Below are positions 43,655 through 53,592 of a stretch of 64,000 nt of DNA, one piece after another (the stretch's first letter is position 1; each line of letters starts with the position of its first letter). The notes below the pieces were generated by a model. It was not told the origin of the DNA. It did no database searches and worked only from the letters and a program-made list of their open reading frames with translations. A program made the position numbers and the translations under genes. Origin of the DNA: Chitinophaga sp. MM2321 (lineage in GTDB: Bacteria; Bacteroidota; Bacteroidia; Chitinophagales; Chitinophagaceae); the NCBI RefSeq assembly GCF_964033635.1, contig NZ_OZ035533.1, positions 4,030,001 to 4,094,000 on the forward strand, written 5' to 3'.

Positions 43655-44239
43655 ATGCCGGAAAATATTCATACTGAAAAATTAAGAGAGAAAGTATCAG
43701 GCATCTCCTCGTTATCTGAGGAGTCATTTACACTTTTATTGCAGCATGGAAAGATAAAACAATGGCCGAAAGGCGCTCTCCTGCTGAAAGAAGGAGCAAA
43801 GTGCAGCGAGATTTATTTTATTGAAAAAGGCGCTATCAAGGCTTTTCAGGATAAAGATGGGAAGATGATCAATCTCTGTTTTTATTTTGAAGATACCTTT
43901 GTAACCAATCTCAAAAGTCTACGGTCAGAAGCCGCGTCCGCATACAATCTACAGGCGATGGAGCCATTGCAGACGTATAGTTTTGAAAAGCAGAATCTTC
44001 TTAGTTTGTATACACTTTCCGCTGAGATAGAGCTTTTTGGCAGAAGCCTGCTGGAATCATTGTTGATAGAACAGGAAGAACATGCCAACTTCTTCAAACT
44101 GTATTCCCCCGAAGAGCGATACAGTTACCTGCTTACGCATGCTCCCTTCTTTATTCAACGGATCCCCGTGAGCCAGTTAGCTTCTTACCTGGGCATCACC
44201 CGGGAATCGTTGAGCCGCATCCGGAAAAGAATAAAATAA
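43655..44239 (+). CDS. Crp/Fnr-family regulator
   Basis: 194 residues. Cyclic-nucleotide-binding-like barrel (WPKGALLLKEGAKCSEIYFI, EKGAIKAFQDKDGKMINLCF) and a C-terminal HTH (IPVSQLASYLGITRESLSRI). No Fe-S cysteine set is present, so it is not an oxygen-sensing Fnr. The effector is unknown. Many short Bacteroidota members of this type control neighbouring genes; the SnoaL-like gene follows 81 bases downstream. Confidence 0.86.
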   Translation: MPENIHTEKLREKVSGISSLSEESFTLLLQHGKIKQWPKGALLLKEGAKCSEIYFIEKGAIKAFQDKDGKMINLCFYFEDTFVTNLKSLRSEAASAYNLQAMEPLQTYSFEKQNLLSLYTLSAEIELFGRSLLESLLIEQEEHANFFKLYSPEERYSYLLTHAPFFIQRIPVSQLASYLGITRESLSRIRKRIK

Positions 44240-44771: not shown

Positions 44772-45107
44772 TCACTCCTGCCACAACCGTATAGTGCTGT
44801 TATTCAAGGAATGATCGACCAGGATCTGGCAAGCCAACCGCACATTATCATTTTCGATCCCGGCCTTATAAATAGTTGCTTCTTCATTCCTGCCTAATTT
44901 CGATAAAGGAAGCTCACTCGATATTATTTCAACAAGACAGGTGCCACACCTGCCTATTCCTCTACATTCACCAAAATCTTCTACATAAATTTTGTCACTG
45001 ATCAACATCATGAGGTTCCTGTATTCGCCGGTATGCGTTTTCAGTTCACTCTCTTCCCCGTCATGCAGTACCTTTATAATAATATCATCTGTTATTGCCT
45101 CCATCAT
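44772..45107 (-). CDS. [2Fe-2S] ferredoxin (adrenodoxin/plant type)
   Basis: 111 residues from ATG 45107; the frame is open 11 codons upstream, but that would overlap the hemerythrin gene. Cluster ligands follow C-x5-C-x2-C-x35-C: CRGIGRCGTC (C48, C54, C57) and C93. It is a soluble one-electron carrier. As the last gene of the NO-defence operon it is a candidate electron donor for the truncated haemoglobin, the RIC protein or the hemerythrin. Confidence 0.9.
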   Translation of the reverse strand: MMEAITDDIIIKVLHDGEESELKTHTGEYRNLMMLISDKIYVEDFGECRGIGRCGTCLVEIISSELPLSKLGRNEEATIYKAGIENDNVRLACQILVDHSLNNSTIRLWQE

Positions 45108-45117
45108 ATCCCCTAAA

Positions 45118-45603
45118 TTACACTTTAACCCAAAATTCATCCTGATAATTATCTACCGGGGTTACTGCGTGCATGTTTTTTAATTGAATCCCGATATTGG
45201 AAAGGCTTTTTGCAGACAATGCAGATTCCAGGTAAGGAAACAGCTCTCTTTCTTCAAAACGGATATGCTGGTCTATCAATGCGGCCAACGAGGTGTAAAT
45301 ACCAGGAACCTCCTTTCCGGCAGTATTGATACGTTGTATCATATCCGTTATCTGCTGGTGTTGCACAATAGCTTCATCACAAAATTTATGTTTCACCTGG
45401 TTAAACAGGATGTTCTCTTCTTCTTCAAAATGTTGTTTCAAATGGGTGTCCCAAAAGTAATTGATATACTTTCTGATCCTGTCAGGTGCAATCTCTCTTT
45501 TTACGCCCTGTCTTAATTTCCAGCAAAACAGCAACCCCATATGATGTTCCCTGGAAAGCGGCATGATGTGCTCATTTCTTTTTATAGGTCTGCTACTGGC
45601 CAT
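45118..45603 (-). CDS. Hemerythrin-domain protein
   Basis: 161 residues of the four-helix hemerythrin HHE fold: IMPLSREHHMGLLFCWKLR, HLKQHFEEEENILFNQV, CDEAIVQHQQITDMIQRIN and IDQHIRFEERELFPYLES. The His and Glu residues are placed to bind a di-iron centre (H-HH, H-EEEE, H, H-E). Such proteins bind O2 or NO or buffer iron. It is placed between the RIC and ferredoxin genes of the operon. Confidence 0.87.
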   Translation of the reverse strand: MASSRPIKRNEHIMPLSREHHMGLLFCWKLRQGVKREIAPDRIRKYINYFWDTHLKQHFEEEENILFNQVKHKFCDEAIVQHQQITDMIQRINTAGKEVPGIYTSLAALIDQHIRFEERELFPYLESALSAKSLSNIGIQLKNMHAVTPVDNYQDEFWVKV

Positions 45604-45634
45604 ATGTAAATCATTTAAGGGTGACTATATACAA

Positions 45635-46369
45635 CTAAGCCGTCATGGCCGTTTCCATTTCTATAGACTTAGGGAAAAGAATATTGTTTTCCAGGTGGAT
45701 ATGCAGGTGCAGGTCTTCTTCAAATTCGTTCAGCAACGCATAGGTGACCCGGTAAGTATTACAGGCATCTGCCGGCGGTGTATAGCTATCCGCTAGTTCC
45801 CTGATCTTTCTATATCTTTCCCCTTCCGCATCATGCTCGTGCATCATCATGCGGATAGGGTTTTGCACGGTTCCGAACGACGCTGCAACAGCACCGCTTT
45901 TCTGTTCTTTTGCCTGCACCATTTTCCGGATAAAAGGAAATAACATCAGTTCCTCTTTTTTCATATGCATGGTCAGCTCGCCTGCTCCCCCGGCAAATAA
46001 TGTTCTTATTTCAAAAAGTTCCGGGTGCTTTTCCCCATGTACCTTGCATAGTTTATCCAGGTAATTTTCCAGCACGGGTATTTGTGTTGATACATAGCGG
46101 TGGTGCTTTTTCTCGATGTAATCTGCTAACAGATCCAGCGGCCAGGATTTGTAATCGTTGGTAGCATTTTCTTTGTTGGCCGCCGATTCTATAACCTGCA
46201 GGATTTCGAGTTTCACCTGCACGGCGTCCGTATTAATGGGTCTGCAAGCTTCTTCAACAGACCTGTTGCCATTGCAGCAGAAATCAATGTTGTGTTTTTT
46301 AAATACTGCGGCGGTGCGGTAGTCGGAAGCTACCCATTCTCCTATCGTTTTTTCGAGTGTAGTAGACAT
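45635..46369 (-). CDS. ric: RIC (ScdA/YtfE-type) iron-sulphur cluster repair di-iron protein
   Basis: 244 residues. The N-terminal ScdA_N domain has TIGEWVASDYRTAAVFKKHN then DFCCNG (C31, C32). The hemerythrin-like part binds two irons: IEKKHHRYVSTQIPVLENYL, GAGELTMHMKKEELMLFPFI, IRMMMHEHDAEGERYRKI and EEDLHLHIHLENNILFPK. RIC proteins repair Fe-S clusters damaged by NO or peroxide. Its presence is the strongest single pointer to nitrosative stress for this operon. Confidence 0.94.
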   Translation of the reverse strand: MSTTLEKTIGEWVASDYRTAAVFKKHNIDFCCNGNRSVEEACRPINTDAVQVKLEILQVIESAANKENATNDYKSWPLDLLADYIEKKHHRYVSTQIPVLENYLDKLCKVHGEKHPELFEIRTLFAGGAGELTMHMKKEELMLFPFIRKMVQAKEQKSGAVAASFGTVQNPIRMMMHEHDAEGERYRKIRELADSYTPPADACNTYRVTYALLNEFEEDLHLHIHLENNILFPKSIEMETAMTA

Positions 46370-46391
46370 GTTTTGTTTTTTTAAAGATCAT

Positions 46392-46829
46392 TCATTGTTT
46401 AAAAAGTGATATTCCTGAAATGATCAGGCAACCCGTTTTGATGATTTCCACTCCTATAAAATAAAGATGCAGACTGGAAGATGGTACCGGTTTTCCGGAG
46501 ATATATAATGCTGCTCTCTGACCCAGCCAGGGCAAGAGCCAGCATGTTTGTACGATTAATATAATGAGTATAATCAGCAGGAAAATATTCCGTCCCGAAA
46601 GAATCGGTGTATTGCTCATGACTGCACCGATCATCACAACAACAGCAAATCCCCATTCTACTTTATTCAATGCATTAAATACCAGCCGTCCGATACTCAG
46701 CCCGATAGGAAGTGTGACGCCGGGCGCCCTGAACTTTATCCAGGCTTCCATAAAGCTGATTGACAATACGAAACCCAGCCAGGTAAAGATGCAAATCAGC
46801 ACCAGTGGTTGTTCTACTTTTGTTATCAT
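46392..46829 (-). CDS. Four-helix membrane protein of the NO-defence operon, unassigned
   Basis: 145 residues with four hydrophobic helices: PLVLICIFTWLGFVLSISFM, VEWGFAVVVMIGAVMSN, NIFLLIILIILIVQTCWLL and LYFIGVEIIKTGCLIISGIS. I do not recognise a named family. The start overlaps the truncated-haemoglobin stop by four bases (ATGA), so the two are translationally coupled. A haem- or quinone-related membrane role is possible, but only by context. Confidence 0.7.
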   Translation of the reverse strand: MITKVEQPLVLICIFTWLGFVLSISFMEAWIKFRAPGVTLPIGLSIGRLVFNALNKVEWGFAVVVMIGAVMSNTPILSGRNIFLLIILIILIVQTCWLLPWLGQRAALYISGKPVPSSSLHLYFIGVEIIKTGCLIISGISLFKQ

Positions 46830-47221
46830 AGCAGTGGTGTTCCGGGGTTGCTGTTGTAATAGTTAATTTTTGAGAGAAACATGATAGCCATCTTATCTCC
46901 TCTCCATTTCGCTTCTCTGGCTTTCTCTCCTTCAAAGTATTCATCGATGGTGGCATACCACAATTGCAGCCAGGCATCAAAATGTTCCTGTTGTACAGGT
47001 AGTTTGGCATGTGGTAGAAAAGGGCTGCCATAGTAGGTATGCTCCTGCAATAGAACGGTTTGCCAGAACCGGTACATCTTCTCCAGGTGTGCAGGCCAGC
47101 GGCCCTCCAGGATACCGTTGAAGATGGGGCCCAGCAATGCGTGTTCCCGTATCCTGCCATAAAAGGTGTCTACCAGGAGCCGTATATCGTCCATTGTTGT
47201 GATCTCTTTTGTGTCTTGCAT
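46826..47221 (-). CDS. Truncated haemoglobin, group III-like
   Basis: 131 residues of the 2-on-2 globin fold. Tyr at the B10 region (DTFYGRI), Trp-rich E/F region (RWPAHLEKMYRFWQTVLL), and proximal His H80 in LPVQQEHFDAWLQLW, the group III signature. In other bacteria such globins help to detoxify NO or handle O2 at low tension. It lies 6 bases after the Ig-like membrane gene and overlaps the next gene by four bases. Confidence 0.9.
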   Translation of the reverse strand: MQDTKEITTMDDIRLLVDTFYGRIREHALLGPIFNGILEGRWPAHLEKMYRFWQTVLLQEHTYYGSPFLPHAKLPVQQEHFDAWLQLWYATIDEYFEGEKAREAKWRGDKMAIMFLSKINYYNSNPGTPLL

Positions 47222-47227
47222 AACCCT

Positions 47228-47644
47228 TTATTGTGTTAAGGAAATATATCTTGCCAGGTAGTACATCGCCCATCCGGCGAAGCCAATGATCAGCGTCCAT
47301 ACCCACGCGGGGATACTTTGCGGGGTTTCACTGCCTTCAATCAGGAAAGATTTCTGATCTCCTTTTCCATACGCATTGATCATCAATGGCAATACACCAT
47401 CTACTACCGCATTTTCCCTGATCCCTTCAATCGCAATGGCGGGGCCGTTGCGTACTACAAAGGGAATAAGGCGGATCCCTTCTTTGCCGGAGGGATCCTT
47501 GCTGACCACCTTCAACGTATGATTACCATCTACCAGCTTACGTGTGTCCAGCTCAAAATTTACCGGTGATTTTACTTCGGCAATGGGCCTTGGCTCATCA
47601 TCTATAAAAATAAATATGGTGCTTTCTTCATCCATGTTATTCAT
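47228..47644 (-). CDS. Ig-like domain protein with C-terminal membrane anchor
   Basis: 138 residues without a signal peptide. An immunoglobulin-like beta domain (STIFIFIDDEPRPIAEVKSP, then DTRKLVDGNHTLKVVSKD, IRLIPFVVRNGP) is followed by a single C-terminal helix (IPAWVWTLIIGFAGWAMYYL). No haem or metal motif is visible. It overlaps the CxxC membrane gene by 8 bases and is encoded right behind the cytochrome/oxidase genes, which suggests a small structural or assembly subunit of that complex. Confidence 0.6.
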   Translation of the reverse strand: MNNMDEESTIFIFIDDEPRPIAEVKSPVNFELDTRKLVDGNHTLKVVSKDPSGKEGIRLIPFVVRNGPAIAIEGIRENAVVDGVLPLMINAYGKGDQKSFLIEGSETPQSIPAWVWTLIIGFAGWAMYYLARYISLTQ

Positions 47645-47897
47645 TGTTTAAAATGTTCCTTTTAATATGGCTATCCGATTTTTCTCCGGGATGGACCAGC
47701 CATTTTACGGAGAAGAAAAGGGTGAAGAGCACGATGATAACGGTGACCCATACAATCAGGTAATCCCAGTTACTGCCGGGCGTACCTCCATGTGTAAAGC
47801 CGCCCAGTATCCCTTTCTGCTGTCTTTCACAAACCGGGCAGGCCAATGCTTGTAAACCTGTTAATACGACAAAAGCTGTCAGGATGATTCTTTTCAT
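47637..47897 (-). CDS. Small exported membrane protein with CPVC motif
   Basis: 86 residues: signal peptide (MKRIILTAFVVLTGLQALA), immediately a CPVCERQQ motif, then a single membrane helix (YLIVWVTVIIVLFTLFFSVK) and a short cytoplasmic tail. The exposed C-x2-C could bind a metal or a haem-less cofactor, or act as a redox pair, so a copper or cytochrome assembly role is possible. It starts on the last base of the cytochrome c stop codon and overlaps the next gene by 8 bases, so coupling to the cytochrome is strong. I do not recognise a named family. Confidence 0.6.
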   Translation of the reverse strand: MKRIILTAFVVLTGLQALACPVCERQQKGILGGFTHGGTPGSNWDYLIVWVTVIIVLFTLFFSVKWLVHPGEKSDSHIKRNILNNE

Positions 47898-48901
47898 TAC
47901 TTGCTGGCTTTCAGTTTTACAAAATCCATGATCTTTTTAACTTCCTGCGATGTAACCGGCTGACCGTTATTTCCCCAGCTGTTTCTCTCATAGTTGATCA
48001 GGGCGGCTACTTCTTCTTCGGTAAAGTTCATGTTGGTGCCTACCGGTGGCATGACGCCATAGTCGGCTCTCGCATCATATCCGTTCATTACAATGTCCAC
48101 ATATAATTCCAGGTTGTCGCCCAATACAACCGGGCTTCCTTTCAGTGGAGGGAAAGCACCCTTTAATCCTTCTCCGTTGGCCTGATGGCAGCTCTGGCAG
48201 TTAGCTGTAAAAATTGCTTTACCATCCGGTCCTGCTGGTGATCCATTGGCTGGTGCTTTTTCCACTGTTCTTTTATATAAAAAACCTGGTGTTGCGCTGC
48301 TATCAGATAGTTTGGTTTGTTTGAGCGATTGCAGGTAAGCGATCAGGTATAAGGCATCTTTTGAAGCAACTACTTTTCCTGTTGCGCCATTCAGATAGGC
48401 TTCCGGCACGTTTACCACTACATCTGTTTTCGCGGGTGTTTCCTTGATGGAGAACAACCACTCATAGGAAGGCATGATAGATTCCTTCACTACTATTCTC
48501 GGATTGTACAGGTGTACCAGGTTCCAGTCTTTGCTGGGCTGCCGGCTTCCTATATTTGTGAGATCCGGTCCTGTGCGCTCTGTTCCCATCAGGGTAGCAG
48601 TGTTGCGCCATATATCTGTGCGGTGGTTATCTGCATAGTCTGCCGCCATACCCGGGCGTTCGCCCCACATTTTATCCATGTCCACATTGCGCACCTGTTG
48701 GGTATGACAGGCCACGCAGCCATTCGCTACGAAGATGGCCTTTCCTTTCACTGCATCTTCGCTCAGTGGCTTTGCATCGGGCAGGGGCGCATTGTTTTGC
48801 TGATTACTGATCGCCGGCATAATGGCAACGAGTATCGTAAGTCCTGCAAAAAATAAAAATGCAGTGGTAAAAAGTTTCTTATGATTATCGAATAATTCCA
48901 T
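47897..48901 (-). CDS. Diheme cytochrome c, CcoO-like N-domain plus CcoP-like C-domain
   Basis: 334 residues. One N-terminal membrane anchor (LFTTAFLFFAGLTILVAIMP). Haem 1 at CVACH (62-66) lies in a CcoO-like domain (KMWGERPGMAADYADNHRTD, TGPDLTNIGSR, NPRIVVKESIMPSYEWLF; axial Met probably 143). Haem 2 at CQSCH (235-239) lies in a small cytochrome c domain ending MPPVGTNMNFTEEEVAALI. It combines in one chain what cbb3 oxidases have as separate subunits. It should feed electrons to the oxidase subunit I encoded 19 bases upstream. Confidence 0.88.
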   Translation of the reverse strand: MELFDNHKKLFTTAFLFFAGLTILVAIMPAISNQQNNAPLPDAKPLSEDAVKGKAIFVANGCVACHTQQVRNVDMDKMWGERPGMAADYADNHRTDIWRNTATLMGTERTGPDLTNIGSRQPSKDWNLVHLYNPRIVVKESIMPSYEWLFSIKETPAKTDVVVNVPEAYLNGATGKVVASKDALYLIAYLQSLKQTKLSDSSATPGFLYKRTVEKAPANGSPAGPDGKAIFTANCQSCHQANGEGLKGAFPPLKGSPVVLGDNLELYVDIVMNGYDARADYGVMPPVGTNMNFTEEEVAALINYERNSWGNNGQPVTSQEVKKIMDFVKLKASK

Positions 48902-48920
48902 GCTGAACTGAATATTTTAT

Positions 48921-51086
48921 TTAAATAGTTTGTGCGCCGGATTCCTTTTCTGCTAATTGACGTATAGTCCTCTCCGTTACATCCACCACGCCATCGTTTA
49001 CCAGCATCCTATACATGTTGTATGCAAAGAACAGGTGAGACAACCACATCAGGCTGCCGCCGATTGCCCTCCATAGCCAGTAGGGCGCCATCATCACCAC
49101 GCTGTCGATGAATGGCTTGCCGGCTAACCACATCAGTCCTTTCAGCGTGCTGCCATACATTAACGGGATGGTATAAAAAAGCATCCCGATAAGTGCCAGC
49201 CAGAAATGGGCGCCGATGGTTATCTGCGGCGCCTCTTTACCGGTGAGACGCGGTACTACAGCATAAATAGCCGCCCAAAGGAAAAAGCAGATAATACCGT
49301 ACATGGTGAGATGAGAATGCGCCACCGTGAAATCGGTAAAGTGCCAGATCAGGTTGGTGGAGCGGAAGGCTTCTGCGGTGCCCTGCATAGACCCCGTGAA
49401 ATAGAAGATGATCCCTACCAGGAAAAACGGCAGCGTATAACTGTCTTTAATCTTATACCACGCGCCTTTAAAGGTCATGAGGAAGTTGGTGGTACCTGCA
49501 ATCACAGGAATCGCCATCCCGCCGCTACCTACAATAGCAATGGTTTGTAACCACCAGGGAATAGCACTGAATACAAAATGGTGCGTACCGATCAGCGTAT
49601 AAAAAAGGATCTGCGTCCAGAAGGCAAGGATCCCTAAGCTATAGGAATAAATAGGCTTGTTGAGTTGCTGCGGCAGAAAATAATAAACGATCCCCAGAGT
49701 AAATAACATGAACCACATGCCTACGCCCTGGTGCATGTAATAGCCCTGGATAATGGTTTCGCCCAGGCCGTCCTGCCAGTAAGGAACATAGGCAACCACC
49801 GCTATCACGATGGCAAAAATGATGGCAGAAACGATATACCAATTGGCGATGTAAATTTCTTTGGTGGTGCGCCTGGCGATGGTCTGTAAAAAGTTGACCA
49901 GTGTTAATGCCAGCCCGATACCAAACAATAGCATTACCGGCCATATATATTCACGGTATTCACCACCGCCGTTGTTGATCCCTGCCAACAGGCAGAGGGT
50001 ACCTAAAATAACCGCCGCATTGATCAGGTAAAGGGTATACCAGCCTTTTTTAAGACTCGCCAGCGCCGTGTTGCTTACCCGGGGTACCACGTAATATCCC
50101 AGGCCCAGCATACCCAGTGATGCCCAGCCCCAGAAGACTGCATTGGTATGTACGGGACGTAAACGGCCAAAACTTAACCAGCTGACGTGGTCTGCATCCG
50201 GGGCCACAAATTTGATCCCGATATATTCTCCCACCGTGGTGCCAAACAGCAGCCAGAAGGTAGCACAGCCAATATACCAAAGTATAAGCCTGGACAGCGC
50301 CGGATCTATATTGGGGCGTTTTACTGCTTTCTTTTTGATAGCCACTATGGGCAATCCTTTATTAACATTGATGTGCAGCAAGCCTTTTTCATCTTCGGCT
50401 TTATGAGAACCGGCCAGTTCCTGGTTTTTCAGCTGGTAGTCCAAAGCGGCTTTACGCTTCTTTAAGGCCGCTTCTATTTCCTCCTCCGGCTGGGTACTGA
50501 TATAAGCTGCCAGCTTCTCCGCTGCCTCCAGGTTTAGTTTGTTGCGGTGTTGCTTTAACGCATACATCACTTTTGTCACCAGGAAGATAACCCCCAGGAT
50601 GATGGGAATCAGCAGGAGTACAATGGTAATGATGATCCCCGGTTCGTTCAACAGGGAGGGAGATGCCTCTCCCTGTGCTGAAACACTGTTACTGAAAAAA
50701 GTAAAGATGCTTGTCAGTCCCAGTACCAGCAATGCGGATGAGGCGCCGCTGCCACTTTGCGGGTGTTTGTTTTTTCTTTGTTTGTATTGCAGACAGGCAT
50801 CGATCTGCTCACTGCTAAAGTCGTTGAAATACTCCTTAAAGGTCTGCGCCCCTTCTTTGCTCCGCTCCTTTTTGTTTACAGCCCGCATCTTATTCACTTT
50901 GTTGCTGAGTACCAGTACAACCAGGATCAATGTCAGCAGCAGTCCGTACAGGACCATTAACCGTGCTTCTTTTGAATGAAAGGAAAAGGTATAGGGACTC
51001 ATGCCCTGCGCACAAACGGATAAAGGTTGTGCCAGGAAAGCGACAAAGGTTAAAAAGATAATGCCAGCTGATTTTCTTCTATTCAT
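48921..51086 (-). CDS. Divergent cbb3-like (CcoN-type) haem-copper oxidase subunit I with N-terminal extension
   Basis: 721 residues. Residues of about 262-710 are a CcoN-like 12-helix core. Ligands visible: H313 (RPVHTNAV), H452 (YMHQGV), H502/H503 (GTHHF), H590 and H592 (VAHSHL). Y496 lies six residues before H502, as does the cross-linked tyrosine of CcoN. The conserved Glu of the CcoN TFEGP motif is Gln here (Q568 in SMQGT). About 260 extra N-terminal residues contain two similar blocks, each a signal-like segment ending AQG, a membrane helix and an amphipathic helix. No CcoS, CcoG or CcoI assembly gene is nearby. It could reduce O2, NO or both. Confidence 0.85.
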   Translation of the reverse strand: MNRRKSAGIIFLTFVAFLAQPLSVCAQGMSPYTFSFHSKEARLMVLYGLLLTLILVVLVLSNKVNKMRAVNKKERSKEGAQTFKEYFNDFSSEQIDACLQYKQRKNKHPQSGSGASSALLVLGLTSIFTFFSNSVSAQGEASPSLLNEPGIIITIVLLLIPIILGVIFLVTKVMYALKQHRNKLNLEAAEKLAAYISTQPEEEIEAALKKRKAALDYQLKNQELAGSHKAEDEKGLLHINVNKGLPIVAIKKKAVKRPNIDPALSRLILWYIGCATFWLLFGTTVGEYIGIKFVAPDADHVSWLSFGRLRPVHTNAVFWGWASLGMLGLGYYVVPRVSNTALASLKKGWYTLYLINAAVILGTLCLLAGINNGGGEYREYIWPVMLLFGIGLALTLVNFLQTIARRTTKEIYIANWYIVSAIIFAIVIAVVAYVPYWQDGLGETIIQGYYMHQGVGMWFMLFTLGIVYYFLPQQLNKPIYSYSLGILAFWTQILFYTLIGTHHFVFSAIPWWLQTIAIVGSGGMAIPVIAGTTNFLMTFKGAWYKIKDSYTLPFFLVGIIFYFTGSMQGTAEAFRSTNLIWHFTDFTVAHSHLTMYGIICFFLWAAIYAVVPRLTGKEAPQITIGAHFWLALIGMLFYTIPLMYGSTLKGLMWLAGKPFIDSVVMMAPYWLWRAIGGSLMWLSHLFFAYNMYRMLVNDGVVDVTERTIRQLAEKESGAQTI

Positions 51087-51105
51087 ATTAAACGATATTA
51101 ATACC

Positions 51106-51119
51106 TTTTTATCTTTTAT
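51106..51119 (-). promoter_or_regulatory. Candidate Rrf2 half-site upstream of the oxidase gene
   Basis: ATAAAAGATAAAAA on the minus strand, about 20 bases before the oxidase ATG. The same 14 bases occur on the plus strand at 51611-51624 upstream of the Rrf2 gene itself. The AT-rich setting makes chance recurrence possible. Confidence 0.35.
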
Positions 51120-51133
51120 TATATCAAAAAAAA

Positions 51134-51568
51134 CTATTTCCGTCTCAGGAATGTGAGGTTCAGGTCCAGCTGGGCGGTAAATTCACCCAACTTTGCTTTC
51201 TCAAGCATCTGTTTAATTTCTGCTCTCACTTTCTTAAACTCGTGGTGGATGGGACATGGATGGGATTCTGAACACTGTTTAAGTCCTAACCCACAACCGG
51301 AAAAAAGTTTATCCCCATCTACCTCTGTTACGATATCAGCCAATGAACATTTTAAAGATTTATTATCGAGATAAAAACCGCCATTTGGTCCTTTTAGAGA
51401 TTGCACCAGCCCTTTCCTGCTCAGATCCTGTAATATTTTGGCAATAAAAGATTCCGGTGAGTCAATCCCTTTTGCAATTTCTTTAATCCCAACTTTATTA
51501 CCATCTTTCGATTTGTGTGCAATAAAAATCATCGCACGAATCGCATATTCGCAGGTCTTTGAAAACAT
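51134..51568 (-). CDS. Rrf2-family regulator with three clustered cysteines (NsrR/IscR-like)
   Basis: 144 residues. Winged helix: CEYAIRAMIFIAHKS, GIKEIAKGIDSPESFIAKIL, QDLSRKGLVQSLKGPNGGFY. Cysteines C92, C99 and C105 (CGLGLKQC, HPC) sit where NsrR and IscR bind a Fe-S cluster. Such a cluster would sense NO, iron or redox state. Being first in the minus-strand operon with RIC, globin and oxidase, it is probably an NsrR-like repressor of the whole set. The gap to the oxidase gene is 47 bases. Confidence 0.87.
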   Translation of the reverse strand: MFSKTCEYAIRAMIFIAHKSKDGNKVGIKEIAKGIDSPESFIAKILQDLSRKGLVQSLKGPNGGFYLDNKSLKCSLADIVTEVDGDKLFSGCGLGLKQCSESHPCPIHHEFKKVRAEIKQMLEKAKLGEFTAQLDLNLTFLRRK

Positions 51569-51587: not shown

Positions 51588-51634
51588 CAAAGGTATAATA
51601 TTCCACCATAATAAAAGATAAAAAACTCTTTTAT
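51588..51634 (-). promoter_or_regulatory. Promoter and inverted-repeat operator of the rrf2 operon
   Basis: On the minus strand TACCTTTG (51588-51595) matches the -7 consensus, 20 bases upstream of the rrf2 ATG. An inverted repeat ATAAAAGA (51611-51618) / TCTTTTAT (51627-51634) with an 8-base spacer covers the -33 position, where only a TTTT is seen. This fits autoregulation by the Rrf2 protein. Confidence 0.5.
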
Positions 51635-51708: not shown

Positions 51709-51765
51709 AAGGCCGTAAAAATAACTGCTGCAAAGTGACGGCATCAATTATTGCGCACACCGGAT

Positions 51766-52359
51766 ATGAACAATTTATCTACTGAAGCTGATATACTGGA
51801 TGGCCTGGTTAAGGGAGAAAGAGTTGCTTTCATACAACTGTATGAACAGTATGCGGGAGAATTGTACCGGTATATTTATTTGTTTATCCGCTCCAGGGAA
51901 GATGCGGAAGATATTCTCCAGAATGTATTCACCAAAATCTGGCTCAAAAGGGATACCCTCGCAGGAATCAGGTCCCTGCGCAGTTTCCTCTTCAGGGTTA
52001 CCCGGAACCAGGTACTCAATTATTTCAGGAGCAGCAAAGTAAAGATGCGGGTGCATAACCTGATGACATCGGCAGATACACGCGAAGATGCTGACGCTAA
52101 CGAACTCCTGCAATACAAACAATACTATGAAATCGCAAAAGACGCCATTAATAAACTCCCGAAACGCCGGCAGGAAGTTTTCAGGCTGAACCATGAAAGC
52201 GGGCTCAATACACATGAAATTGCCCAACAGTTAAATATATCTACTTCTGCTGTAAAGCAACACCTCTACGCAGCATCGGATTTTATCCGGGAATATCTTC
52301 AGAAGCACGGAGATCTTACCGTATCCCTGGTTATTTTTCTCTCGCTATTCAAAAAATAA
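51766..52359 (+). CDS. ECF sigma-70 factor of PUL3
   Basis: 197 residues from ATG 51766. Region 2: RVAFIQLYEQYAGELYRYIY then REDAEDILQNVFTKIWLKRD; region 4: LPKRRQEVFRLNHESGLNTH then STSAVKQHLYAASDFIREYL. It ends in a hydrophobic tail (LTVSLVIFLSLFKK). It is the first gene of PUL3, 81 bases before its FecR partner. Confidence 0.92.
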   Translation: MNNLSTEADILDGLVKGERVAFIQLYEQYAGELYRYIYLFIRSREDAEDILQNVFTKIWLKRDTLAGIRSLRSFLFRVTRNQVLNYFRSSKVKMRVHNLMTSADTREDADANELLQYKQYYEIAKDAINKLPKRRQEVFRLNHESGLNTHEIAQQLNISTSAVKQHLYAASDFIREYLQKHGDLTVSLVIFLSLFKK

Positions 52360-52440
52360 AAAAAAATTAATCCCTGACCTGTCTTATTCTTCACCCCGGG
52401 TGTCTTATATCTGCAGGTGTAACAAAAATCAAGCTTTCTA

Positions 52441-53592
52441 ATGAATAAAGATGAAGCACGACATTTTGTGGAAAGGTTTGCTGCCGGGAACTATACCCCG
52501 GAGGAGCATGAATCATTTGAGCAATGGATCTTCAGTCAGCCACTACAGGAAGTACAAGGCCTGCTGGTTGAATATACGGAACTCCTGGAACAACAACGGG
52601 TATGGCTGCCGGCAGATAAACAATTACTGGGCCGCATCCTGAAAGAAATTGATCAGCAGGAACCGGGGGTTGTATCCCTGTTGAACTGGAAGAAGAAACT
52701 GGTCTATGCAGCTGCCATCACGGTGTTGCTGCTAAGTGGCGGCTATATGATATGGCAACAGCAACATAAAAAAAAGCCAACCGGAACATATGCGCACACC
52801 ACCCGGCCAGGAAGCAATAAAGCGACATTGCAACTGGCGGACGGCAGCATAGTAGAACTGGATAGCACCGGCAACGCAGCACTGACCGGAAAGGGCCAGA
52901 TCCTGAAAATAACTGCAGGGGTTTTACAATATAACCCGCAGCATGGCCAGGAAACAATGGCATACAACACGCTGGCCACCCCACGTGGCGGCCAATACGA
53001 AGTGTTGTTGCAGGACGGTACCCGGGCTTTTCTGAATGCAGCATCTTCTATCCGTTTCCCGGTTTCATTTACCGGCAATGAAAGAATAGTGGAGATGACA
53101 GGAGAAGTATATTTTGAAGTAGCAAAAAACGCGGCGAAACCTTTCATTGTAAAGGCCGGAGATATGCAGGTGCATGTACTGGGCACGCATTTCAATATCA
53201 TGGCGTACCCCGAAGAAGATTGCATCCGCACCACTTTGGCAGAAGGCGCCGTGGCAGTGTCCCGCGGTACCGCCATAAAAACACTGCAGCCTGGTCAGCA
53301 GGCAGTATTGCAACACAACGATACCGGTTTTGAGATACATCCAGCAGACGTGGAACAGGAAATGGCCTGGAAAGATGGCCGCTTTATCTTCAATGACAAT
53401 ATCAAGGGCATCATGCGGCAGATTGAACGCTGGTATGATGTACGCGTATCCTACGAAGGAAATATAAGTAGCAAAGCTTTTATAGGAGATATTTCCCGGA
53501 AAGAAGATTTAACAGCCGTATTAAAAATGCTGGAGATGACCGGGAAAATCCATTTCAAAACAGTGAACAATGAAATAATTGTGCAGCCTTAA
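52441..53592 (+). CDS. FecR-type anti-sigma factor (PUL3)
   Basis: 383 residues. Cytoplasmic region about 1-85, membrane helix (LVYAAAITVLLLSGGYMIW), periplasmic FecR domain (GSNKATLQLADGSIVELDST, then LATPRGGQYEVLLQDGTRAF and GEVYFEVAKN) and DUF4974 (IMRQIERWYDVRVSYEGN). It restrains the PUL3 sigma factor. Confidence 0.94.
   Translation: MNKDEARHFVERFAAGNYTPEEHESFEQWIFSQPLQEVQGLLVEYTELLEQQRVWLPADKQLLGRILKEIDQQEPGVVSLLNWKKKLVYAAAITVLLLSGGYMIWQQQHKKKPTGTYAHTTRPGSNKATLQLADGSIVELDSTGNAALTGKGQILKITAGVLQYNPQHGQETMAYNTLATPRGGQYEVLLQDGTRAFLNAASSIRFPVSFTGNERIVEMTGEVYFEVAKNAAKPFIVKAGDMQVHVLGTHFNIMAYPEEDCIRTTLAEGAVAVSRGTAIKTLQPGQQAVLQHNDTGFEIHPADVEQEMAWKDGRFIFNDNIKGIMRQIERWYDVRVSYEGNISSKAFIGDISRKEDLTAVLKMLEMTGKIHFKTVNNEIIVQP

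Follow-up and report, generated by a model that had tools for sequence, protein, structure and literature searches.

The C-family (cbb3-type) oxidase of Pseudomonas stutzeri has been reported to reduce nitric oxide (NO) (PMC8780969), and a bifunctional cbb3-type enzyme has been proposed for members of SAR11 that bear NirK and lack an NO reductase (NOR) (PMC12816887). Here, we describe a ten-gene operon of Chitinophaga sp. MM2321, contained in a stretch of 64,000 nucleotides (nt) of contig NZ_OZ035533.1, which is called the window throughout and to which all position numbers refer. The operon joins a divergent cbb3-like oxidase to proteins of the NO-response type. Its existence is confirmed, and Bacteroidota conserve its oxidase core. 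On balance, it probably encodes an alternative C-family terminal oxidase for nitrosative conditions, which would be controlled by an Rrf2-family regulator, induced by NO or iron-sulfur (Fe-S) damage, and capable of some NO turnover. A description of this operon was not found among the titles and abstract openings listed in a literature search, which reached few subscription papers.

All ten open reading frames (ORFs) fall within 44772..51568 of the minus strand; adjacent frames overlap slightly or are separated by no more than 47 bases. In the order of transcription they encode the Rrf2 regulator, oxidase subunit I, a CcoO-type diheme cytochrome (subunit II), OrfA, OrfB, a truncated haemoglobin, a four-helix membrane protein, RIC, a hemerythrin and a ferredoxin. 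Seven of the ten products are backed by Pfam or NCBIfam profiles, over or near the curated cut-offs, and no family was found for OrfA, OrfB and the four-helix protein in the Pfam/NCBIfam scan of the window copies. The tightly packed single-strand operon reported in the first-pass annotation is thus confirmed by the ORFs and the family matches alike. Three COX1 genes are present in the whole 6.78 Mb genome, and one of the other two is a CcoN-O fusion inside a separate ccoNO-P-G-H-type locus (CcoG, CcoH and the neighbours were named by eye).

Conservation of the operon was examined at two levels. Of 395 Bacteroidota genomes searched with subunit I, 13, the source genome included, contained a match of at least 56% identity, and the next best-scoring match had 35% identity. 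In addition, the best 80 of 457 candidate loci from a scan of genome contigs, by their titles all Bacteroidota, were combined with ten further loci, two duplicates being removed (L034, a duplicate of L121, and L035, a duplicate of L104), to give a set of 90 loci. Pedobacter ginsengisoli (L085) and Dyadobacter koreensis (L097) are among the species that carry the operon. Neighbouring genes were counted when they were on the same strand within 8 kb. The core genes were found in nearly every locus (subunit I in 90, the diheme CcoO in 89, OrfA in 89 and OrfB in 87), and all four occurred together in 87 of the 90, in the identical order subunit I, CcoO, OrfA, OrfB in 87 of 87. The misses are confined to L041, in which OrfB was not found, and to L071 and L105, where the contig ends. 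The small genes, whose conservation the first-pass annotation had proposed to check, therefore accompany subunit I consistently. The accessory genes were less frequent: Rrf2 was counted in 64 of the 90 loci, globin in 58, RIC in 33, ferredoxin in 30, hemerythrin in 28 and the four-helix protein in 20. Wherever an Rrf2 gene was present, it lay 5' of subunit I (64 of 64).

At least one of RIC, group III globin and hemerythrin was encoded on the same strand within 8 kb in 69 of the 90 clade loci and in none of 26 ordinary ccoN loci. These controls, six of eight second-tier regions (L050 and L051 were unused) and 20 further loci, were all searched with the same profiles and thresholds. Because similarity to the query guided the choice of the loci, and the loci are themselves related, these counts are not independent. 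Even so, the oxidase is joined to NO-response-type genes more than by chance, since 87 of 90 loci have the full core and NO-marker neighbours occur at 69 of 90 clade loci against 0 of 26 controls. An ordinary cbb3 oxidase that adjoins stress genes fortuitously would agree with the overall C-family membership of the enzyme; this explanation is contradicted by the counts, by the clade-specific core and by a palindrome of the clade's own, and we regard it as very improbable. A plasmid collection contained no close member: 436 records matched, all with less than 60% identity and none covering 80% of the query.

Some further genes recur around the oxidase. In a survey of 9 kb around 92 loci (the two duplicates kept, the proteins named by eye), DUF488-like proteins occurred 18 times, cupin proteins 15, DUF2249/DUF1858-like proteins 14, NnrS-like membrane proteins 13 and SufT-like proteins 11 times. 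In Chitinophaga pinensis YS-16 (L096), two reading frames, with scores of 388 and 91, take the place of the single diheme CcoO frame, ric and rrf2 are opposite in strand to the oxidase, and a palindrome stands before ric.

The accessory proteins encoded downstream of the oxidase genes in the window were assigned from profiles and structures. The truncated haemoglobin (46826..47221) matched PF01152 (Bac_globin) with 24.6 bits (cut-off 21), and its closest solved structure is the group III globin 2ig3 (E 1.2e-13), followed by 1ux8 (E 9.8e-6). RIC, an iron-centre repair protein of the ScdA/YtfE type (45635..46369), matched TIGR03652 with 234.6 bits (cut-off 204.7) and is the only ScdA_N match in the genome. 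The hemerythrin-domain protein (45118..45603; PF01814, 43.6 bits) is followed by a [2Fe-2S] ferredoxin (44772..45140; Fer2, PF00111, 27.1 bits) with cysteines at positions 59, 65, 68 and 104. The identities given to these four proteins in the first-pass annotation agree with the profile matches, and in the case of the globin also with 2ig3. The four-helix membrane protein (46392..46829) is distantly DUF4149-like: a match at E ≤ 1 was obtained for 4 of 21 members, with a best E of 4.8e-4 and an E of 0.58 for the window copy.

Subunit I (48921..51086) is a CcoN-type protein of the C family with a duplicated N-terminal membrane module. It matched COX1 (PF00115) with 278.8 bits and the NCBIfam ccoN model TIGR00780 with 247 bits, under the cut-off of 583; by these scores it is a relative of CcoN and no equivalog, and its closest PDB match is CcoN 3mk7. 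In two phylogenetic trees (59 and 63 rows) its clade was monophyletic with support of 100/100, on a stem of 1.25–1.33 changes per site, and was placed among the C-family rows as sister to a C-family subgroup (97/76 in the first tree; 98/99 in the second, read from a run-together label). The NOR rows were separate from the clade and the C family in both trees (100/99 and 100/100). L163, in which there is no open frame of 300 amino acids, and L171, another clade member, were omitted from the first tree, and the second was built without the A-family row, without the NOR-like rows and without near-duplicates among the CcoN and qNOR sequences; in the first tree the A-family row joined the C-family rows on a very long branch (7.09). 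The sister subgroup (L134, L017, L018, L020, L021, L024 and L027) consists of sequences from other Bacteroidota and from the megaplasmid of Cupriavidus metallidurans CH34, and five of its CcoP proteins that were examined have a single-heme domain and a short N-terminus.

The metal and heme ligands are all retained. The CuB histidines H452, H502 and H503 and the C-family tyrosine Y496 of helix VII, six residues before H502, are kept, as are the heme-ligand histidines H313, H590 and H592 in the subunit I alignment, and the CuB histidines and the tyrosine are identical in 17 clade sequences of the main alignment and 12 of another. The first-pass annotation had called subunit I a divergent CcoN-type protein and had pointed to Y496 and H502; both statements hold, for the clade is unmixed with ordinary CcoN yet lies inside the C family, and H503 is likewise present in the alignment. 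The residue four positions after H452 (His+4) is glycine, as in most CcoN rows, and in cNOR and qNOR there is a glutamate at this position and no tyrosine. The counterparts of Tyr237 and Ser240 of P. stutzeri, positions to which we presume a role in the K channel, are Tyr482 (16 of 17 clade rows) and Gly485. Gln568, which replaces a glutamate of P. stutzeri CcoN (STFEGP), was considered as a special active-site change, and this reading was dropped because most other Bacteroidota C-family rows also carry glutamine there. The published diagnostic residues at the position of the oxygen-reductase tyrosine are E, E, N, Q, D and N for cNOR, qNOR, sNOR, eNOR, gNOR and CuANOR, respectively (PMC8756737, Table A4). 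With His+4 equated with that position from our own alignment, the glycine of the clade matches none of the Q, N, D and N of eNOR, sNOR, gNOR and CuANOR, from which the clade is set apart by these published residues only. By its residues, subunit I has the look of an oxygen reductase of the C family, although it falls short of the ccoN equivalog cut-off and has Gly485 in place of Ser240; in the trees it is apart from cNOR and qNOR.

These residues bear on another explanation, in which the enzyme is a physiological NO reductase of the C family that converts NO to N2O and replaces cNOR and qNOR in NirK-bearing Bacteroidota, with the oxygen-reductase tyrosine kept. The first-pass annotation had left the choice between a terminal oxidase that works under NO and an NO reductase of an undescribed type. 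The cbb3-like oxidase tied to NO-type genes has stood up, and the second option is weakened because the oxygen-reductase site is intact and the NOR glutamate is missing, Gly occupying His+4 in place of Glu, Gln, Asn or Asp. It still stands because the C-family enzyme of P. stutzeri is reported to reduce NO (PMC8780969), and the SAR11 proposal (PMC12816887) speaks in the same direction; we consider it rather unlikely.

Two other features of the heme-copper proteins were noted. Residues about 16–222 of subunit I form an N-terminal extension that is an internal duplication, consisting of two copies of a membrane helix followed by a charged helix (hhalign probability 98.4%, E 4.6e-15, 88 columns, 79 sequences). 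In L009–L016, which come from more distant genomes, the regions matching subunit I start past this duplication. A similarity between the extension and the N-terminus of the genome's CcoP (89.5%) covers 23 columns only and resembles a signal-peptide end, and it is not claimed. A NOR-like heme-copper protein of 448–472 amino acids was found in genomes of the window's family (L165, L166, L167, L168 and L170) and formed its own clade (100/100); it lacks the first CuB/FeB histidine (GSMVG instead) and retains the HH pair, and in genomes G410, G480 and G487 such a gene adjoins a weak NorC-like match.

The four core genes stand in the order of ccoN-O-Q-P. Subunit II (47897..48901) unites a CcoO domain and a second cytochrome c domain in one polypeptide: it matched FixO/CcoO (PF02433) with 95.9 bits (cut-off 29.6) and Cytochrom_C with 68.8 bits, and it stayed under the cut-off of the NCBIfam ccoO model TIGR00781 (86.6 bits against 200.65). 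Its two CxxCH motifs are at residues 62 and 235, and two such motifs are present in 88 of the 89 loci with CcoO, in accordance with its earlier description as a CcoO/CcoP-like diheme cytochrome c. OrfA (47637..47897), a small one-helix protein in the ccoQ position, has a CPVC motif near the N-terminus and a PGE...HIK tail, of which P70, E72, H77 and K79 are invariant in a 26-sequence alignment and CxxC is missing in L038, L040, L042 and L044. The window copy has no Pfam match above the cut-off of the family concerned.

OrfB (47228..47644) occupies the ccoP position and combines an Ig-like (immunoglobulin-like) domain with a CcoP-type membrane segment. Of 34 members, 10 gave a weak match to FixP_N, the N-terminal domain of CcoP (best E 0.008), and 6 and 3 matched Ig-like families. 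The membrane segment aligned with the N-termini of the single-heme CcoP proteins of the sister group (hhalign 92.6%, E 4e-7, 22 columns; controls 0.7% and 6.4%) and with those of canonical CcoP at only 16%. CxxCH is absent from OrfB in the window and in 80 of the 87 loci, so that the protein is no diheme CcoP; in the other seven (L038–L040 and L042–L045, from more distant genomes) a cytochrome c domain that has a single CxxCH and resembles the second domain of CcoO at 36–45% identity forms part of OrfB by fusion. Glu106 is invariant in 34 sequences and is followed eight residues later by Trp114, at least 90% conserved, a spacing equal to that in the genome's own CcoP and in one of two plasmid CcoP proteins (two of the three canonical CcoP examined). 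The glutamate of CcoP presumably lies at the mouth of a proton channel, for which the literature search gave no confirmation. A link between OrfB and CcoP is drawn from the single-heme CcoP match, the gene position and the cytochrome c fusions. The two small membrane proteins, unassigned in the first-pass annotation, can thus be placed, OrfA in the CcoQ position by position only and OrfB in the CcoP position with some support from sequence. By domain content, it is CcoO that carries the second cytochrome domain in the window, and of the CcoP-like protein there is left an anchor with an Ig-like domain.

The regulator encoded by the first gene (51134..51568) belongs to the Rrf2 family (PF02082, 98.4 bits) and contains Glu7 and the cysteine arrangement Cys92-X6-Cys99-X5-Cys105. 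The SKTCEYA motif and the three-cysteine region are conserved in 65 sequences. The earlier designation of the protein as NsrR-like remains valid for the three cysteines and not for the NCBIfam NsrR model (41.2 bits, cut-off 182); the score against IscR was 61 bits, and both are far under the cut-off.

A perfect, operator-like palindrome, ATAAAAGA-N8-TCTTTTAT, lies 5' of the Rrf2 gene (51611..51634, minus strand) and has its sole exact match in the 6.78 Mb genome there. It differs from the NsrR box of E. coli. The upstream regions of 65 Rrf2 genes, the window's own and those of 64 loci, have the palindrome in common. When up to two mismatches were permitted, 86 sites were found in the 90 loci (1.69 Mb), as compared with 1–7 for six permuted patterns (five distinct); 62 of these sites precede rrf2 or subunit I and 8 precede ric genes, whereas 16 were left unassigned. 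The eight ric-linked sites comprise two on the strand opposite to the oxidase, two upstream of the oxidase and four downstream. One locus at a contig end being omitted, 62 of 89 testable loci have the palindrome in the promoter region, including 52 of the 64 with a local rrf2 and 10 of the 25 without (Fisher p 0.0003). Sites common to the rrf2/oxidase and ric promoters link Rrf2, the oxidase and RIC in one regulon. Looser sites elsewhere in the genome were not accepted: up to three mismatches gave 141 sites against 181 for the reversed control, and the only one-mismatch site falls inside a sulfatase-like reading frame, and therefore one operator is claimed in this genome. The −7 promoter consensus of Bacteroidota is TAnnTTTG, which is fitted by the element TACCTTTG (51588..51595, minus strand). 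This consensus occurs within 40 nt after 48 of 58 palindromes with at most one mismatch, in 46 cases at 10–17 nt, as a raw count without a chance control. With a −7-like element just downstream, the palindrome would cover the −33 region.

We infer that NO is the signal of this regulon. The Rrf2 protein may instead sense Fe-S status in the manner of IscR, in which case the operon would encode an alternative oxidase tuned to low O2 or general Fe-S stress and NO would be incidental. The higher IscR score, the ferredoxin encoded in the operon and the general knowledge that RIC also repairs Fe-S damage caused by other oxidants are in line with this possibility, although the group III globin, RIC and hemerythrin together point to NO and none of the three is encoded next to any of the 26 ordinary ccoN loci. 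We judge it improbable, more so than the NO reductase.

For the oxidase that serves under nitrosative conditions, the following mechanism can be envisaged. The Rrf2 protein would hold an Fe-S cluster and sit on the palindrome over the promoter, and NO or other Fe-S damage would strip the cluster and end the repression. The second cbb3-type oxidase would then be made together with RIC, hemerythrin, the group III globin and the ferredoxin. The oxidase would keep electrons flowing to O2 at low O2 and turn some NO into N2O, while the binding of NO and the repair of iron centres would fall to the soluble proteins. House-keeping respiration would be served by the ordinary ccoNO-P-G-H-type locus, which would probably supply assembly factors as well. 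Several observations weigh against this account. The signal may be Fe-S status or O2, not NO, because the regulator fails the NsrR model. The palindrome is still present in 10 of the 25 loci without a local rrf2, and 12 of the 64 loci with one have no site at two mismatches or fewer. Among 74 loci whose downstream flank covers 7 kb, nine have none of RIC, globin, hemerythrin and rrf2 nearby. Finally, of the ten genes that the first-pass annotation had treated as a unit, the four-gene core stays together, whereas fewer than half of the 90 loci have RIC, and the same holds for hemerythrin, for the ferredoxin and for the four-helix protein.

The NO reductase alternative was also assessed from the nitrogen-oxide genes. 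In the window genome, the qNOR domain, NosZ and NrfA were not found and the cNOR query matched only this subunit I (NirS, flavohaemoglobin and Hcp were unsearched), and NirK gave a single 36.8-bit match against a cut-off of 296. As no NirK, NosZ, NrfA, cNOR or qNOR was found, a purely denitrifying role is unlikely in this genome, and the operon is more likely there for defence than for denitrification. The clade is carried by 21 of 117 genomes of the window's family, which are related to one another. At a loose NirK cut of more than 150 bits, the clade occurs in 7 of 11 NirK genomes without a detected cNOR, qNOR or NOR-like gene and in 14 of the 106 others (Fisher p 0.0005), a test that ignores kinship, is one of several tried, and uses a NirK cut set after the scores had been seen and NOR absence defined by one cNOR query at E ≤ 1e-10 and the qNOR domain. 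With the curated NirK cut and only cNOR and qNOR counted, the numbers are 5 of 9 and 16 of 108 (p 0.009). NosZ also co-occurs with the clade (15 of 21 clade genomes, 41 of 96 others; p 0.028). These enrichments, none of them corrected for kinship, favour an NO reductase, and other results from the same genomes, likewise uncorrected, speak against it: 13 of the 21 clade genomes have no NirK above 150 bits; qNOR, present in 2 of 21 clade genomes and in 9 of 96 others, is not depleted (p 1.0); and among the 19 NirK genomes the clade occurs in 1 of 8 with a NOR and in 7 of 11 without, a difference that is not significant (p 0.059).

Many Bacteroidota relatives thus carry a second, unusual enzyme of oxygen respiration packed with proteins of the types that bind NO or repair NO damage, and the gene packing suggests a route to keep respiring, or to destroy NO, when NO is present. 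In 11 of the 19 NirK genomes of the window's family no NO reductase was found, and 7 of these 11 carry this oxidase. With an Rrf2 operator that it has in common with RIC, this cbb3-type enzyme is a testable candidate for continued respiration or NO removal in such bacteria. Surveys that label such genes just "cbb3 subunit I" would overlook this function. It is a rather unlikely idea that the C-family enzyme is the cellular NO reductase of NirK-bearing Bacteroidota without known NORs, with the oxygen-reductase tyrosine and the CcoP-type glutamate kept; if so, the cbb3 line would have acquired NO reductase function with the tyrosine still in place and with an Rrf2 operator dedicated to it. The operon further suggests that, within the cbb3 family, a heme domain of CcoP can be transferred to CcoO or disappear.

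The surroundings of the operon also contain regulatory genes, named by eye: a Crp/Fnr-type regulator gene past the 3' end (43655–44239) and, immediately 5' of the operon and on the opposite strand, a sigma factor/anti-sigma pair (51751–53592).

Compared with known systems, the operon shares the heme-copper superfamily and the NO context with cNOR and qNOR and differs from them in the active site, the NORs having Glu at His+4 and no tyrosine and the clade Gly and the tyrosine. The NsrR regulon likewise has an Rrf2 repressor and NO-defence targets; in the portion of the source available, it is described in proteobacteria and firmicutes with hmp, and the Bacteroides systems named there use HcpR2 (PMC1274295). 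In the nirK-cbb3 region of SAR11, cbb3 genes are also tied to nitrogen-oxide metabolism, with NO reduction by cbb3 proposed, but they are canonical ccoNOQ and ccoPGHIS behind a crp-fnr gene and beside nirK, and Rrf2, RIC and globin are unmentioned in the available part of that account (PMC12816887). Pseudomonas aeruginosa ccoN4 is likewise an extra cbb3 catalytic subunit, induced by a poison of heme-copper oxidases (cyanide) by way of a neighbouring regulator and a palindrome; it differs in that cyanide and MpaR are involved in place of an Rrf2 protein, and in being an orphan subunit as opposed to the whole divergent complex here (PMC10790758). With the ccoNOQP oxidase, the operon has in common the N-O-(Q)-(P) order, the CuB and heme ligands, the tyrosine on a separate helix and a FixO-type subunit II. 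Unlike ccoNOQP, its subunit I belongs to a long-stemmed clade of its own with a duplicated N-terminal module, its subunit II bears a second cytochrome c domain, its CcoP-like protein has an Ig-like domain and is here free of heme motifs, and the operon is without assembly genes and has Rrf2, RIC, globin and hemerythrin as neighbours.

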